DNA of 64,000 nucleotides, taken from assembly GCA_951213105.1 (NCBI GenBank), contig OX578147.1:128112322-128176321 (forward strand), read 5' to 3'. Below are positions 7,705 through 47,701 of the stretch, one piece after another. Position 1 is the stretch's first letter. Every line of letters begins with the position of its first letter. A program made the translations under genes and the position numbers. The DNA is from Amaurobius ferox. Its lineage: Eukaryota; Arthropoda; Arachnida; Araneae; Amaurobiidae. Under the pieces are notes generated by a model that did no database searches, had not been told where the DNA came from, and worked only from the letters and a program-made list of their open reading frames with translations.

Positions 7705-10334
7705 AGATGACTGGCTAATATAAGATACTATGAATAGAATTATATGATACTATGGAAAGAATTATGAAAATCCAGCTATTTTAAATTTTTTAACAATACT
7801 ATTTACTAAATAAGTGGGATATTTATATAAATTACTAGTAATTTTGAGATTATTGATATGCATAGCATGAAATTTTTTATCAGATAATCTATAAATTCTA
7901 AAAAGCTGATTGAGTATAATATTTCTAAACAATTGAATCGAGTTACAGGAATTAAAAGGTAAGATTTTATTAATATTAAAATTATAAAAGTCTTTTTTAT
8001 CATATAAATTTGTAACAATTCTATTAGAAGGATCAATAAAAAGATTTAAATCCAAAAAATTAACATTTTTATTAATAGTAGCTTCACTAGGTATTAATTC
8101 CAAATTGTCTGGATAGTAATCTATATCTATGAGATAATTTTCTGTATGTACTAAGCAAATCAGATCATCAACATATCTGTAAAAAGTATAATCTATTGAA
8201 GTAAATGACATTTCATAATGATAAAGGTATAAATTAGCTAGCATACTGCTACTACAGCCACCCTGTGGAACTCCTGAGACTTGTAAGTATAATTTATTTC
8301 CTTGAAAAATATAATTATTGAAAATAACAAAGTGAAGAAGTTTAGGAAAATTTTTAAATTTAATTTGATTTGAAAGAGGTGTAATATAAGCATTATATAG
8401 AGCTAAAATTACATCATATAGATCAGATATCTTAATATTATTAAAAAGATCTTTAAAATCAAAAGTTTGAAATCCTATTATTTTTCTAAGAGATGTTAAT
8501 TTATTCTTTAATTCTTTACTATTATTTAGAATATGGTAGTTATTGCTAGTCTGGCTTAAACTATTATTTATTAGATTTAAAGAATTTAGTAATAATTTAC
8601 TCGCAGTAGTAGAGTAAGTATTATGGCCACTAGTAACTGTACTAAATTTAATAGGATTTTTATGAAATTTTGGAATAAGCACTATATAAGGAAATTTAAG
8701 ATATTTATATTTAATATTTAAATCATTATACATATTGATAATTTTCAATTTAATACTATTGATGGAATGTAAATCAGGTTTAAAAAGACTATTATTTTTT
8801 AAATAATCTAACAGAAATTGAATATAAAATTTTTTACAGATAATAGCATAATTATTAGAGGCTTTATCAACATAGGTGATAACAAAGGATCTTTGTAAAT
8901 CATTAATGGAATGTTTAATATTATCAATATTATATAAAGATCTAGACAATTTAATATCTCTAATAGCATTTTTAATTGATTCTAATATAGTAAATTTCCA
9001 CATATTAAATGCCTCTAATGGCAGAGCGTATTTACAAGCTAATTTATATATATATTTATCAAGATCAAGATTAATTGATTTTAAGACTTTAAAAGAATTA
9101 TTACAAGAAGGTATCCTAAATTTAGTGCCAAATGACATAATGGTTCTTAACACATTGTCACTAACAAGGTCTAAATCTCCTGTAACTATGTGCCCCAAGT
9201 CAGGATTTAGAAATTTAGCAAATTTATTTAATTTACAAATACATTCACTATCTACAATTGACTGAGAAGAATGATCAATAGAGAGCGATTGTGAAACTTC
9301 ATTATAATTAAATATAGACCTACCAATAGGCTTATTGTATTTGAATGTCTTTGAAACAAATAAATCACCAATAGGCAATAAATGTTTAAACTTGTTAAAC
9401 AGATGTCCAAAATTTATAGAATTATATATAGGATGTTTGAAAGAGATAACACAATAAGAATTAGTAGTTGTATTATTATAATGAAACTGATTTAGTTTTA
9501 AATTTAAAAACTGTGATCTTGTAATAAGCAAATCAAAGAAAATATGATTAAAATGTTCATTAGCAAGATTTAATTTTAAAAAAATGGCATAAACCTTATT
9601 TAAATGTTTTTTCTTTACTGCAAAAACCCAGGATCTAATGAATTTCCATTGAAAAGTTCTATTAAATTGATTATGTAGAGTTATAATCTCAGATTTATGA
9701 TCATTAAGACTGGAATGTCCCTTTCCTCGTTTAAATCTTTTGAGTTTGATTGATTCACTATCATTTAAATGGGGTTTCAAAAAAAGGTGATTAAAAATAG
9801 AATATTTATTATCTACAAAATTATTTTTTACAACATTACCATTTAGATACATTTGATTTAATCCATATGGAAAAAGAGTACAATGTGATTTAATATAGTA
9901 GTTTTCAAAATAAATCCTATCTGCTGATTTTGTTTTTATATCTAAAATATGTATAGTAATATTTTCAAAACCATGTTTGGCAAAGTGTTTATATTCAATT
10001 TTATTGGAAGTAGGAAGAAAATTATTATTTAGAATATATTTTTTGACATGATCTCTGTGTACATTCATACGTAGATGAATGGGATTACTAGTTTGTCCTA
10101 TATATGATAGATTGCATATGTTACAAGATAAACGGTAGATGCAATTAAAAATTTTGCAGAAAGGCAGAAGACTTTCATGGTTTGTAATTTGAGTATGAGA
10201 AGCATATGGGCAGGTTTTGCATTTTTTATTCTTACATTTATTGAAATTATAATTTTTAGTAGGGTAATCACTATATTCAAAATTATCCATGGCACAAAGT
10301 TGGTAATGGGATATCGGTCTAAACAATTCCCAAT
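6877..10334 (-). mobile_element. Naiad-like Penelope element, apparently full length
   Basis: The element spans from (TA)n at its right (5') side to (TA)n at its left (3') side. It contains one intact ORF (7762-10290) and an 885-bp 3' UTR. An A-run at 7671-7700 (T-run in sense) lies about 60 bp after the stop; the isolated tail copy near 60 kb stops exactly at the equivalent run, as 5' truncation would produce. No target duplication can be told apart from the TA repeats. Confidence 0.8.
7762..10290 (-). CDS. GIY-YIG/reverse transcriptase polyprotein of a Naiad-like PLE
   Basis: An intact 842-residue protein likely to nick target DNA and prime reverse transcription of its own RNA. Order of domains: a cysteine knuckle (C19, C24, C27), an N-terminal GIY-YIG nuclease (IYRLSC...SYIGQT at 51-66, R74, candidate catalytic E129 in [10 protein letters not shown], then PYGLN at 141-145), a long AT-coded linker, and a reverse transcriptase with PKFHK (540-544), motif A FDFKDLF around D611, motif B SGVPQGG (672-678) and catalytic YVDD (706-709). 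A nuclease before the RT is the order described for the Naiad/Chlamys PLE clade; canonical PLEs have it after. The start chosen is the ATG at 10290; the open frame runs 38 codons further into (TA)n, which codes only alternating Tyr/Ile and is unlikely to be translated. Rich in Asn, Lys and Ile, matching local AT content. It may be functional. Confidence 0.88.
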
Positions 10335-10548
<214 letters not shown>

Positions 10549-33216: not shown

Positions 33217-33264
33217 TGCACTAGTTATAGGATGCTCACTTCAACGTCTAGAAGGTGCAATTTC

Positions 33265-35212: not shown

Positions 35213-35627
35213 TTTTTTAATTTGAAGTTGCTTTCACTTAATAAATTATGCCTGTGGATGTAAGTATGTCCTATGTTAAAGGAGATATCAGTGTGACCAA
35301 GATAGAATATTACAGTTACATAAAAATTAGCTTTACGATCAGTGTTTCTTTCCGGCATACCTCCGGGGGGAATAAGCCCTCCCAGAGACGAGTATTCGCT
35401 CCCTCCGGAGACATTTTATGTCAACCTAGTTTCTATTTATGTGACACAGCATTTAGATATACACTGGAGGAAAATAAAATCCCAACACCAAGAAGAAATT
35501 AGTTTAGAGGAATGAAATTTAGACAAAGCAATTGTGTAGGTAATATATTTATTTGATTAAAGTTTCAAGATCACAGGTTAAAGTATATGCGCGAGAAGAC
35601 CCATTTCAAATGTGAAATGGTGGTACA

Positions 35628-36704
35628 TTAATGACCGCTGTAGTCGCCAAGATTTTGAATGCAAGCATGCAAACGTGCATGCATTGTGTCGTACAGGTGC
35701 CGTATGTCATTTTGTGGGATGGAGTTCCATGTCTGTTGCACTTGGTCAGTCAAGTCAGCAACGGTTAATGCTGGTTGTGGATGGTGTTGGATTTGTCTTC
35801 CAATAATGTCCCATAGGTGCTCGATGGGAGAAAGATCTGGTGATCTCTCAAACCAAGGCAACATCGACACACTGTACAGCACCCGGCCGACTAATCGGTT
35901 GCTCATGTCCTTGCTGACGAGCCGGTCGGTCTGGGTCTTCAACACTGTACAGCACGTTGGGTGACAGTAGCGGTATGAGGACGAGCGTTATCCTGTTAGG
36001 AAACAACCTCTTGAATACTGCTCATGAATGGCAGCACAACCGGTTCAATCACCATTCTGATGTACAAATTTGCTGTCAAGGTGATAACGACGATGTGCTC
36101 CTGCTGTCATAGGAAATGGCTCCCCAGACCATAACTTCTGGTGCAGTCTACGCCGCAGACAGCTTGATTCCAAGCTCTCACCTGGCCTCCTTCTTACCAA
36201 CATACGACCATCACTCGAACCAAGACAGAAACGGCTCTCATCTGCGAATACAACAGATCTCCACTCTGCCCTCCAATGAGCTCTAGCTTGATACCACTGA
36301 CGTTGCAGATGGCAGTGATTCAGAGTCAGTGGTGTGAACGCCACAGGCCGTCTGGCTCGGAGCTGTCCCTCAAGTAATCGATTTCTTACAGTTCGCTGTG
36401 TCACTCTGGGGCCAACAGAAGTTCTAATTGCTGCTGCAGATGCAGTATGATCCGCCACAGCCGTGCAGCGAATACGGCGGTCTACCCTCTCAGTAGTGGC
36501 CCGTGTGCGGCCGGACTCAGGTCTTCTTGAGGCAGTGCCTTCACGTGATCACTGCTGCCAACAATCATGCACAGTGGATACATCCCTGCCAAGTCTTTCT
36601 GCAATATCGAGGAAATAAAATCCATCTTCTCGTAGCCCTATTATACGGCCTCGTTCAAACTCACTAAGCTGCTGATACTGCCTTCTTCGTCTCCTTAAAG
36701 GCAT
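35628..36704 (-). pseudogene. Tc1/mariner-family transposase pseudogene
   Basis: The ATG at 36704 begins a helix-turn-helix region (YQQLSEFERGRIIGLREDG, then RLGRDVSTVHDCW). A nonsense codon follows in the CWQQ-SREG phrase. The catalytic core begins with VVFADESRF (first Asp). A frameshift lies before the second Asp region (QDNARPHTA, with a stop just upstream). A 59-bp foreign insertion with a 14-bp direct repeat (35869-35955) then shifts the frame again before SPDLSPIEHLWD, which carries the acidic third residue. It ends in HARLHACIQNLGDYSGH. The protein would normally cut and paste the element at TA sites; this copy cannot. Confidence 0.88.
35883..35941 (-). mobile_element. Mini-insertion, copy 1 (59 bp, 14-bp direct repeats)
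   Basis: Flanked by ACACTGTACAGCAC at 35869-35882 and 35942-35955. Read on the minus strand it starts TGAAGACCCAGACCGACCGG and ends AGTCGGCCGG. It matches two other insertions at 42659 and 46877 at both ends. It interrupts a Tc1-like transposase. Confidence 0.8.
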
Positions 36705-36930
36705 TCTTGACTCAAACATAGCTCACAACGTCCAATTCGGAAGATAAATAACGCTCACGAAGTTTACATCGCGTATTTAAAGCAACCGTGATTTGCATAA
36801 CCATATTGGAGCTATTAGCGCCACTCTTATTCGTCTAGCGCGAAATTTGAATAGGCGCCATCTTTCATGTGCAAAAACGCTCCTCCCAAATTTCGTTTAC
36901 CTAGCACAACTCCCTGAAAGAAACACTGGT

Positions 36931-37174
36931 CACGATTATCATAAGCTTGTCCATGTCGCACGTAGTAAGCACGTAAACATTTCGAAAAAATGTTTGTTCA
37001 CACCAAATTGCTTGCTATGAACATGATATGAACAATTTAAAAAAGTGTATTGGTGGAGATGTTCACTTGCCTTGCCTTTCCTCGCATTTTGGTGTCCATA
37101 TGGACAGAAATTCAATTTTGAAAAGTTGAGTTTGTACTGAACACACTAAGTTGCATGAAATGTAGCTTTATTTT
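36931..37174. other. Unassigned stretch beside the Tc1 element
   Basis: No gene or shared repeat recognised. Confidence 0.4.
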
Positions 37175-41634: not shown

Positions 41635-41706
41635 GTTCCAGTAGCTCAACGGTAGAGCGTCGGCTGGCCAGTTTGGAGATCCAGGGTTCAATTCCCGGTT
41701 GGAGCA
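41635..41706 (+). tRNA. tRNA-like sequence, copy 3 (best preserved; probably tRNA-derived)
   Basis: 72 nt folding into most of a cloverleaf: acceptor GTTCCAG pairs with TTGGAGC across all 7 positions (two G-T pairs), D-arm GCTC/GAGC with AACGGTA loop, T-loop TTCAATT closed by GGG/CCC. It has an A box (TAGCTCAACGG) and a B box (GGTTCAATTCC). The anticodon stem is weak (four of five pairs, mostly G-T) and the loop TGGCCAG lacks U33, so it is probably not a working tRNA. Two decayed relatives and a shared 3' flank (AGCAAGGTTCTTTAC) suggest it is the head of a SINE or part of a duplicated unit. Confidence 0.5.
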
Positions 41707-42561: not shown

Positions 42562-42862
42562 GCAGTTAATTATTGCAAACACACGAGAAATGGTGGAAGA
42601 TTCTGTTCGTGGCGAAAATTTATTAAGGGAATTAATGGGTTATGATGTGCACGGTGTAGAAAACCCAGACCGCCCGACTCACTCTAGGGTTTGAACATGG
42701 CCGGGTTGTGCACGGTGTACGGTATTCGATCGTAAATGTGTTAAAGTGATATCTATTGAGGATAATGGGAAAGTTAAGGCAGAATACTACTTATGCAAAC
42801 CAAAATGTGCAGTTATTAAGGGGACTTTCGAAGACAGAATAAATTTTAAAACGCTTCTAAAG
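42562..42862 (+). pseudogene. Coding-like remnant inside the hAT element
   Basis: An ATG at 42562 opens MQLIIANTREMVEDSVRGEN. After an insertion the other frame reads FDRKCVKVISIEDNGKVK, then AEYYLCKPKCAVIKGTFEDR. The cysteines (C-x2-C before, C-x3-C after) hint at a zinc-binding domain such as those near hAT transposase N termini. A splice-donor-like AAGGTAAG follows at about 42861. The evidence is thin. Confidence 0.35.
42659..42706 (+). mobile_element. Mini-insertion, copy 3 (48 bp, 13-bp direct repeats)
   Basis: Flanked by TGTGCACGGTGTA at 42646-42658 and 42707-42719. Starts GAAAACCCAGACCGCCCGAC and ends ATGGCCGGGT. Same ends as the copies at 35883 and 46877; the middle differs. Confidence 0.8.
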
Positions 42863-45758: not shown

Positions 45759-46268
45759 TAAGATTTGGATAGTGAACTCCTCAGAGCCAGAAATGAAATA
45801 TTCTACGATTCTTCAATCAGAAGAAAAATAGGCAAATAGGCAAATAGCCAACCTCTAATTATTAGTTATGACTGTCAAGAATGTCATTGCTAAAAAGTGA
45901 CAGTTGAAATAAGTTACCACTAGTTGCGGATACTATAGAAAATATATTTAAAGTGCGAGTCTCCATTCGACTTTCTCATACATTCATATTACACTCATGT
46001 TCAAAAGTTAAGCCTAATTCGTGAAATGCGAAACATTCGGAGTTAACATGGTTCACAATCAGTTGTGGAGAATCGTGGGACGAAGGTAAATCATTGTGCA
46101 TATGCAAAACAGTTCAGTCGACGTCGACATGCGCACAGCATCGGCGCACGTCGGAACGAACTGCCTCGAGCAGCATGGCCAGTTGAGGCAGAAGTTCGCA
46201 ATTGCTGTGATACGGAGCGTTGTTAACAATCAAAAGTACGAAAGCTGTCACAAAGATGCCAACTGGAC

Positions 46269-47189
46269 ATGTTTTTGAAGGGACGAATTGTTGCAATGCT
46301 GGAATCCGGTCGATCCCAAACCGAAGCGTCTCGAATTCTGAATGTGCCTCAGTGTGTGATCGCCAGACTGTGGTAGAGGTTCCAAACCGCGGGAGATCTA
46401 ACCCGACGACCAGTACCAGGTCGGCCAAGGGTAACAACCGCTCGGCAAGACTGATTTCTGGTGATAACTGCGCGACGTCAGAGGAACTGTCCTGCCAGAC
46501 AACTGAGTTCAGCTCTGACAGCTGTCACAGGAGTCACTGTTTCGAGACAAACTGTTTACAGGAGACTCAGACACGTTGGTCTCTATGCCAGACGACCCTG
46601 ATCCCCCTGATGTCTGCATAGAAACGCGCGCTTTTACAGTGGAGTTTGGAACATCGGCAGTGGAGTGGACAACAGTGGGGCAATGTCATGTGCAGTGACG
46701 AGTCCAGGTTTAGCCTGCACACTAATTCTCCTCGTATCACGATCTGGAGAGAACGTGGAACGCGTTTCCCCCCGGGAAACAGCACGAAAAGACAACTTTT
46801 TCCGTTTGTGGGAGCCAAGGTCTGGGCAGGCATCATGATGGACAGACCTCCACATCTTTGACACGGGGTTCGATCATTTTCCCGGCCGCCCACTTTGCTG
46901 CTCTATGTCCAAGGATGAGCCGGACGGTCTGGGTTTTCGACGGGGTTCGATCAAAAATACATCGGTTACCGGTCAAAAATACAGAGACGAAGTCCTTGAG
47001 CCTACTGTTCGATTGTTTCAAAGTGCTGTTGGTACTGATTTCGTATTCATGGTTAATGACGTGCCTCCTCACCGTGCGACCTTGGTCGACGATTTCCTTC
47101 AAACTGAAGATATCCAGCACATGCAGTGGCCTGCCAACTCTCCTGATCTGAATCCAATAGAGCATGTGTGGGATATGTTCGGGAGCCAT
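46269..47189 (+). pseudogene. Tc1/mariner-family transposase pseudogene
   Basis: The ATG at 46269 opens a helix-turn-helix region (KGRIVAMLESGRSQTEASRI) with nonsense codons after ARLW and ARQD, and stops near 46600. The core resumes in another frame with CSDESRFSLHTN (first catalytic Asp). A 63-bp foreign insertion with a 14-bp direct repeat (46863-46953) interrupts the coding region. Beyond it come RGSIKNTSVTG and the region where the second catalytic Asp belongs: it reads VNDVPPHRA, with Asn where QDNxxPH transposases have Asp. The third acidic residue is kept in SPDLNPIEHVWD, with 34 residues between the Asn and this Glu. The C terminus is replaced by a microsatellite. Confidence 0.85.
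46877..46939 (-). mobile_element. Mini-insertion, copy 2 (63 bp, 14-bp direct repeats)
   Basis: Flanked by ACGGGGTTCGATCA at 46863-46876 and 46940-46953. Read on the minus strand it starts CGAAAACCCAGACCGTCCGG and ends GCGGCCGGGAAAA, with a short A-run. Deleting the insert plus one repeat leaves the transposase frame open across the site, which supports a true secondary insertion. Confidence 0.85.
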
Positions 47190-47198
47190 CTTTCAGCG

Positions 47199-47701
47199 TG
47201 TGTGTGTGTGAAAGTATGTGTGTGTGTGTGTGTCAGTGAGTCTGTGGAGACGATAACTGACGAACGAATGGACCGATTCGAACCAAATTTGGTACAAAAA
47301 TCACAATCCGTAAACACTGGAAGCCTATTGCTTTTATATGCAATCGAATGTTAAGAACCCCCTAAATTTTCGAATGAAATTTTGAAAAAATCGTCAAAAA
47401 ATCAAAACCACTAATAAAGTTACGCAAATAGACATTTCTTATGTAATTTTTCATTAGAAAACGATTGACATAAATTTTAGAACGCTAAGATGAACCGTTC
47501 TCGAGATATTGTTCATTTTTTAAAAAAAATTATCAAAAAGTCATATAAAAAAAAATTCTTATTGAGAAACATGTTCACTTTTCATATGTAATACCATGCG
47601 ATAAATTAGGTTACATCATTCTCGTGTAACTAGCTCATTCCATTCATGAAAAAATATACTTTTAGTAATACTTTTGTGTTTGAACGCCAATAGTCATTTA
47701 C
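47199..47701 (-). repeat. Family B fragment fused to the Tc1 element
   Basis: Begins inside the GT microsatellite, then GTCAGTGAGTCTGTGGAGAC, ACGAATGGACCGATTCGAAC and so on to AACGCCAATAGTCATTTA. Both ends of the repeat are missing. Confidence 0.85.

Follow-up and report, generated by a model that had tools for sequence, protein, structure and literature searches.

Three short inserts in a 64,000-nucleotide stretch of the Amaurobius ferox genome (hereafter the window) are very probably extremely 5′-truncated copies of a LINE that arose by target-primed reverse transcription. They belong to a family with a constant priming end, a characteristic duplication length, a target motif and empty sites; it has a LINE parent with a terminal hairpin, and the other end of its members is clustered.

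Three hairpin inserts in the window

Insert E1 (35883..35941, RNA sense on the forward strand) is a copy of a LINE 3′-terminal hairpin, 58 nt plus an A, flanked by 14-bp target-site duplications at 35869..35882 and 35942..35955. It scores 72.7 bits with a covariance model of the hairpin, in which it is one of the 20 training rows. Insert E2 (42659..42706, RNA sense on the reverse strand) carries the same hairpin as E1 in a shorter and diverged form of 48 bp, with 13-bp duplications at 42646..42658 and 42707..42719; it is not a training row and scores 29.7 bits (E 1.9e-4). Insert E3 (46877..46939, RNA sense on the forward strand) is a 63-bp copy in which TTTTC precedes CCGG on the RNA 5′ side, with 14-bp duplications at 46863..46876 and 46940..46953 and a score of 66.4 bits, a trimmed E3 being among the training rows.

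The direct repeats of 14, 13 and 14 bp, spaced by 59, 48 and 63 bp, are perfect and lie where a sequence-only reading of the window had placed them. That reading also described a shared start followed by a differing middle. The start is indeed shared, as all three inserts have GAARACCCAGACCGNCCGRCTC and GGCCGG at their opposite ends, with the first 23 bases and GGCCGG conserved. The middle is diverged rather than unrelated: the inserts can be aligned over their full length, with a deletion in E2, and the middles of E1 and E3 align as well (GGACAT-GAGCA). Inspected by eye only, as a test for introners, the acceptor side of E2 lacks an AG.

Elsewhere in the window, positions 7762-10404 hold an open frame of 880 aa that encodes a reverse transcriptase preceded, at the N terminus, by a GIY-YIG domain, a combination like that of Penelope-type elements. 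A tRNA-like stretch at 41635-41706 (Rfam, 37.2 bits), with similar stretches at 33256 and 33602, is a possible SINE. A viral-contig scan gave four loci.

A genome-wide family with one constant end

We searched the spider's own genome (3,564,777,782 bases in 276 contigs, with the window on C16) for the 14-mer GAAGACCCAGACCG that starts the element and found 24,823 exact copies (12,425 + 12,398), against 2 (1 + 1) for the reversed control. In one subfamily, a core of 34 nt has 2,679 exact copies (1,334 + 1,345), against 0 for its control. Both counts are far above their controls, so the family is not due to chance. The hairpin covariance model found 3 matches in the 64-kb window and, with the 14 LINE tails excluded, 7 matches at E<1e-4 in about 139 kb of flanks, four of which score alike and may belong to one other repeat; as a rough guess, this density would put the copy number on the order of 100,000.

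The copies examined individually were the first-listed places of the 14-mer, all on C1 and reaching to about 14 Mb (80 stretches, 86 instances), a sample that is conditional on an exact 14-mer and drawn from one chromosome end. The sequence-only reading had proposed a search of the whole genome with a test for flanking duplications. In this sample, 70 of the 86 instances have a direct repeat of 9 bp or more that starts from the end of the element. Its length is most often 14 bp (29 copies), followed by 15 bp (16), 13 bp (7) and 16 bp (5), so that 57 of 70 fall between 13 and 16 bp; six are longer, and the seven of 9-11 bp are doubtful. No duplication of at least 9 bp was found in the other 16 instances, which include the short copies L046/L047, L088, L099 and L102.

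At one end, beside GAAGACC, 58 of the 70 duplications adjoin the element at the identical base. The other end, counted from GAAG, falls within an 8-nt stretch (56-63 nt) in 45 of 70 copies, and at exactly 58 nt in 22, with a smaller group at 62-63 nt (8/70) that coincides with the base of a second hairpin described below. Thirteen copies stop before 56 nt and 12 after 63 nt; among the latter are palindromes, a poly(A) run and copies in which additional bases have no match. GGCCGG had been regarded as a fixed end of the element, which does not agree with the 13 copies stopping short of 56 nt or with the 17 of 70 that end at 60-67 nt. Some stubs (L044, L092, L097) continue past CCGG with additional bases that have no counterpart in the fetched LINE copies.

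Some copies have a more complex structure. Foldback palindromes of 146-174 bp containing a hairpin copy occur in L045 (355-500), L052 (2801-2958) and L030 (315-488). In L045 and L052 they also take in about 46 bp of adjoining DNA, duplicated in inverted orientation, which looks as though first-strand cDNA had folded back and primed itself. In L017, two head-to-head hairpin copies lie within one 14-bp direct repeat.

The parent LINE

Five of the 86 instances follow a LINE for at least 90 nt, and by eye L081 looks like another, following a diverged LINE. One of the five, L018, was used as a query and gave 46 matches in the 40 candidates scored out of 2,866; 14 of the matched places (L065-L078) were retrieved together with as much as about 10 kb of upstream sequence, L065 being the same place as L018. 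With L065 as the reference, the sequence in common ranges from about 150 to about 3,000 bases, and in 14 of 14 it ends at the hairpin. A longer parent with the conserved start, which the sequence-only reading had suggested looking for, exists, and among the candidates it listed, that of extreme 5′-truncated retrotransposon tails is supported.

The domains of L065, the only copy examined for them, are Exo_endo_phos_2 (1.6e-6), RVT_1 (1.2e-23) and RNase_H (8.5e-8); the RNase H architecture would fit the I group. A homologue search returned 13 distant, mostly unnamed proteins, the best named one being a spider protein with 35% identity over 42% of the query. A 15-bp direct repeat flanks 661 nt in L070 and 864 nt in L073. 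Six of the 14 LINE copies have no exact direct repeat of at least 9 bp within the fetched stretch, the repeats of four seem unreliable to us, and for two the script did not find where the tail ends. AATAAA lies 112-113 nt before GGGT in nine of the 14 LINE copies and 135-168 nt before it in three, and was not found by the script in two; it would be far from the RNA end unless the structured tail were looped out.

In RNA sense, a stub reads CCGGCCG...GGTCTGGGTCTTC plus AAC, and in L124 the tail consists of AAC repeated several times, (AAC)n. The link between stubs and LINE was checked for one subfamily, that with the ACTAAGAGC loop, which has 50 matches extending toward the LINE against 2,679 exact 34-nt cores, a ratio that is approximate because the two patterns are not nested. 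The same continuation, GGAAAGTT, follows in 35 of the 50 extended matches. One copy with this loop, L131, follows the LINE for at least 155 nt and is a LINE tail. Two others (L130, L132), each with a direct repeat seen by eye, align over about 90 nt and stop just past the far edge of the second hairpin.

These LINE-linked copies bear on the idea of a minimal SINE, a 58-nt unit transcribed and amplified alone, independently of LINE transcripts. Such a unit could account for the abundance of some subfamilies (the 2,679 cores) and for the fact that none of 17 sampled ACTAAGAGC-loop copies runs into the LINE. The extended matches and L131 make it less likely, and no SINE head was found either: Rfam gave no match at the window inserts (gathering threshold) or in five copies searched with E up to 1, and thus no sign there of a Pol III promoter head from tRNA, 5S or 7SL. 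We therefore consider a minimal SINE highly improbable.

A conserved 3′-terminal hairpin

For a covariation test, 44 stubs were reduced to 20 distinct ones, leaving out E2 and the palindromes and trimming E3. The hairpin pairs are formed in 95.3% of cells, and sliding the partner strand lowers pairing to 47% or less. Twelve cells are changed on both sides, against 3.1 in shuffles, and none of 500 shuffles reached as high a value, although shuffle statistics overstate the support where sequences are related. Two of the five covariation measures are weak, with values as high in 48 of 500 shuffles for pairs changed on both sides and in 32 of 500 for further pair types. Folded singly in RNA sense, the inserts are unremarkable (z of -1.87 for E1, 0.83 for E2 and -0.14 for E3), and the hairpin is thus drawn from comparison only.

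Immediately upstream in the LINE RNA is a second hairpin, GGGAGTTGGC ATCC GCTAACTCTC, which is weak in L050. Most stub ends lie within the short junction separating the two hairpins, the main peak at 58 nt being about 5 nt short of the base of the second one. The LINE tails themselves showed no covariation in a set of 14 sequences (12 from LINE copies plus those of L018 and L020), which are too alike to put the second hairpin to such a test. We rejected a three-way fold for the whole LINE tail in which GACCGTC, lying upstream, would pair with the 3′ strand, as it showed no covariation and RNAalifold favours separate hairpins. Inspection by eye for a hammerhead or HDV-like ribozyme at the junction was not taken further, Rfam giving no match at the inserts or in the five copies.

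The same pairing could be read at the DNA level, with a transposase recognizing the paired ends CCCAGACCG / CGGCCGGG of an ultra-short MITE, another candidate of the sequence-only reading. In favor of this reading, the two ends can partly pair, divergence is less constrained in the middle, and L017, L045 and L052 are palindromic. However, we do not see two fixed terminal inverted repeats: one end is variable, the pairing is that of a bulged RNA hairpin, and longer copies continue into a LINE. A MITE is accordingly scarcely credible.

Target sites and empty Tc1 paralogues

The target motif was derived from 59 unique copies whose duplications are 12 bp or longer. On the primer strand, the bases before the nick favor GTGT (G 40, T 47, G 58 and T 57 of 59), and the empty site continues downstream with GTAA (G 42, T 32, A 40 and A 37 of 59). 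A second hairpin subfamily, with the loop CTACCAGAAAGGTGTAAGG and found in L030, itself holds a favored target, and several stubs are located after TACCAGAAAGGTGT (L030, L081, L087, L105, L107, L109).

E1 lies in a degenerate Tc1-like transposon with terminal inverted repeats (35337..36931, reverse strand), in which Pfam HTH_Tnp_Tc3_2 scores 24.5 bits, under its cut-off of 31.5. E3 lies in a second degenerate Tc1-like transposon (approximate limits 46220..47354, forward strand), with Pfam DDE_3 at 46905-47354. Other copies of these transposons reveal the sites before insertion. At the E1 site, 31 of 39 other scored Tc1 copies lack exactly 73 bp, the insert plus one duplication (59 + 14); of the remainder, four lack 75 bp, one lacks 69 bp, two have other DNA and one matches across. 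The 14 bp are present once in each of three aligned empty copies (L120-L122). In the one that matches across (L119), a member of another subfamily has inserted at the identical base and has a duplication of its own. At the E3 site, about 92 bp are missing from 31 of 39 other scored copies, and eight match across; five of these eight were fetched, each with a different hairpin copy, and two of the 31, both empty. At the E2 site, one paralogue on C12 lacks 61 bp (48 + 13) by arithmetic from the coordinates, and several other copies are not simply empty. Beside E3, at 46940-46980, the Tc1 copy is about 15 bp longer than its paralogues and contains TCAAAAATACA twice.

Different subfamilies have thus hit the same Tc1 positions independently. 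The recurrent duplications and the empty Tc1 paralogues bear out that the inserts are independent insertions with real target-site duplications, as proposed from the window alone. They also speak to the possibility, raised at the same time, of RNA-templated or polymerase-theta repair patches at random breaks. The roughly 15 bp of further local sequence beside E3 would suit a patch, but the priming end is constant, the 14-bp duplication recurs, a GTGT|GTAA motif is present and the same Tc1 positions are used repeatedly. Repair patches have, in our estimation, a negligible probability.

Proposed mechanism and the sharp 5′ end

Together, these features point to target-primed reverse transcription by a LINE that recognizes its own 3′ hairpin, and we infer every enzymatic step from the junctions. 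The LINE endonuclease would nick the primer strand at GTGT|GTAA-like sites, where the RNA 3′ end, made up of the hairpin, CUUC and at least one AAC unit, would base-pair through its AC to the GT left by the nick. Reverse transcription would then proceed through the 3′-terminal hairpin and usually end in the 8-nt junction before the next hairpin, and a cut in the other strand about 14 bp away would leave a 58-bp stub between 14-bp duplications. To explain the end of copying, we favor stalling of the enzyme, or its loss once it has copied, and hence opened, its own binding hairpin. The second stop of L130 and L132, at the edge of the next hairpin, leans toward such stalling or loss.

A different origin of the sharp 5′ end would be a processed hairpin RNA of about 58 nt, cut from the LINE RNA or shielded from decay by bound LINE protein, that serves as the usual template, the stubs then being full copies of it. 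The 22 of 70 copies ending at one base would fit this, as would the extra junction bases of L044, L092 and L097, which resemble run-off additions. The cut would lie in the short linker between the two hairpins. Against stalling, the peak at 58 nt is about 5 nt off the base of the second hairpin, at which only 8 of 70 copies end. On the other hand, a processed template would not readily explain the 13 of 70 copies whose end lies short of the peak, within the hairpin, or another group with ends 4-5 nt farther out, and two of three fetched longer copies (L130, L132) end at the 5′ edge of the second hairpin, indicating several ends; the five copies compared with Rfam had no match. The LINE-linked copies of the abundant subfamily, together with the stop at the edge of the second hairpin, make this origin less likely, and we regard it as unlikely overall. 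If it were true, stubs would far outnumber LINE bodies and the LINE would mainly multiply its own recognition hairpin, a unit of about 58 nt that would be, to our knowledge, the shortest retroposon.

Relation to known LINEs

Target-primed insertion of truncated LINE copies, which we prefer as the explanation, is known in kind; what is unusual here is the sharpness of the truncation, the brevity of the copies and their number. Searches of the open PMC literature, within the terms used, listed no description of such stubs. Like other 5′-truncated LINEs, the family has 3′-anchored copies with variable 5′ ends and target-site duplications, and a parent with endonuclease-like, reverse transcriptase and RNase H domains. 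Truncated LINE copies are described in a review as 100 to 1,000 bp long and cut at various positions (PMC3747384), whereas in this family the ends cluster at a single junction, leaving 58 bp.

The sequence-only reading knew of no class of element duplicating so much target DNA, which is too strong a statement, since duplications of 14 bp flank R1 LINE insertions, whether full-length or truncated (PMC2718515). The modal 14 bp seen here and the site preference are reminiscent of the R1 LINEs of arthropods; R1 elements insert in 28S rRNA genes, whereas the stubs prefer GTGT|GTAA-like sites, including fixed Tc1 positions. For R2, the same source attributes truncation to copying that is not completed, to decay of the template or to second-strand synthesis that starts early (PMC2718515).

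Stem-loops at the 3′ end are presented in passages of PMC3747384 as a mark of stringent recognition in LINEs, and the conserved 3′-terminal hairpin with compensatory changes resembles that type as described there. In stringent-type LINEs the tail is found joined to a SINE, whereas here the hairpin alone has been inserted in great numbers. An unplaced group of the I superfamily in the mollusc Octopus sinensis (PMC10294476) may be comparable to the parent LINE, whose RNase H architecture would fit the I group, a comparison made at the level of descriptions.

Significance

The reason for LINE truncation is an old question, and this family supplies many natural copies that stop at a single RNA junction. 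As the junction adjoins a defined hairpin and the insertions occur at defined targets, structure-induced stalling and template processing become separable through the statistics of junctions and simple biochemistry. Stubs of 58 bp are easily missed, and usual repeat annotation looks for longer sequences. Finally, recurrent insertion at identical Tc1 positions calls for caution in inferring common descent from shared insertions.
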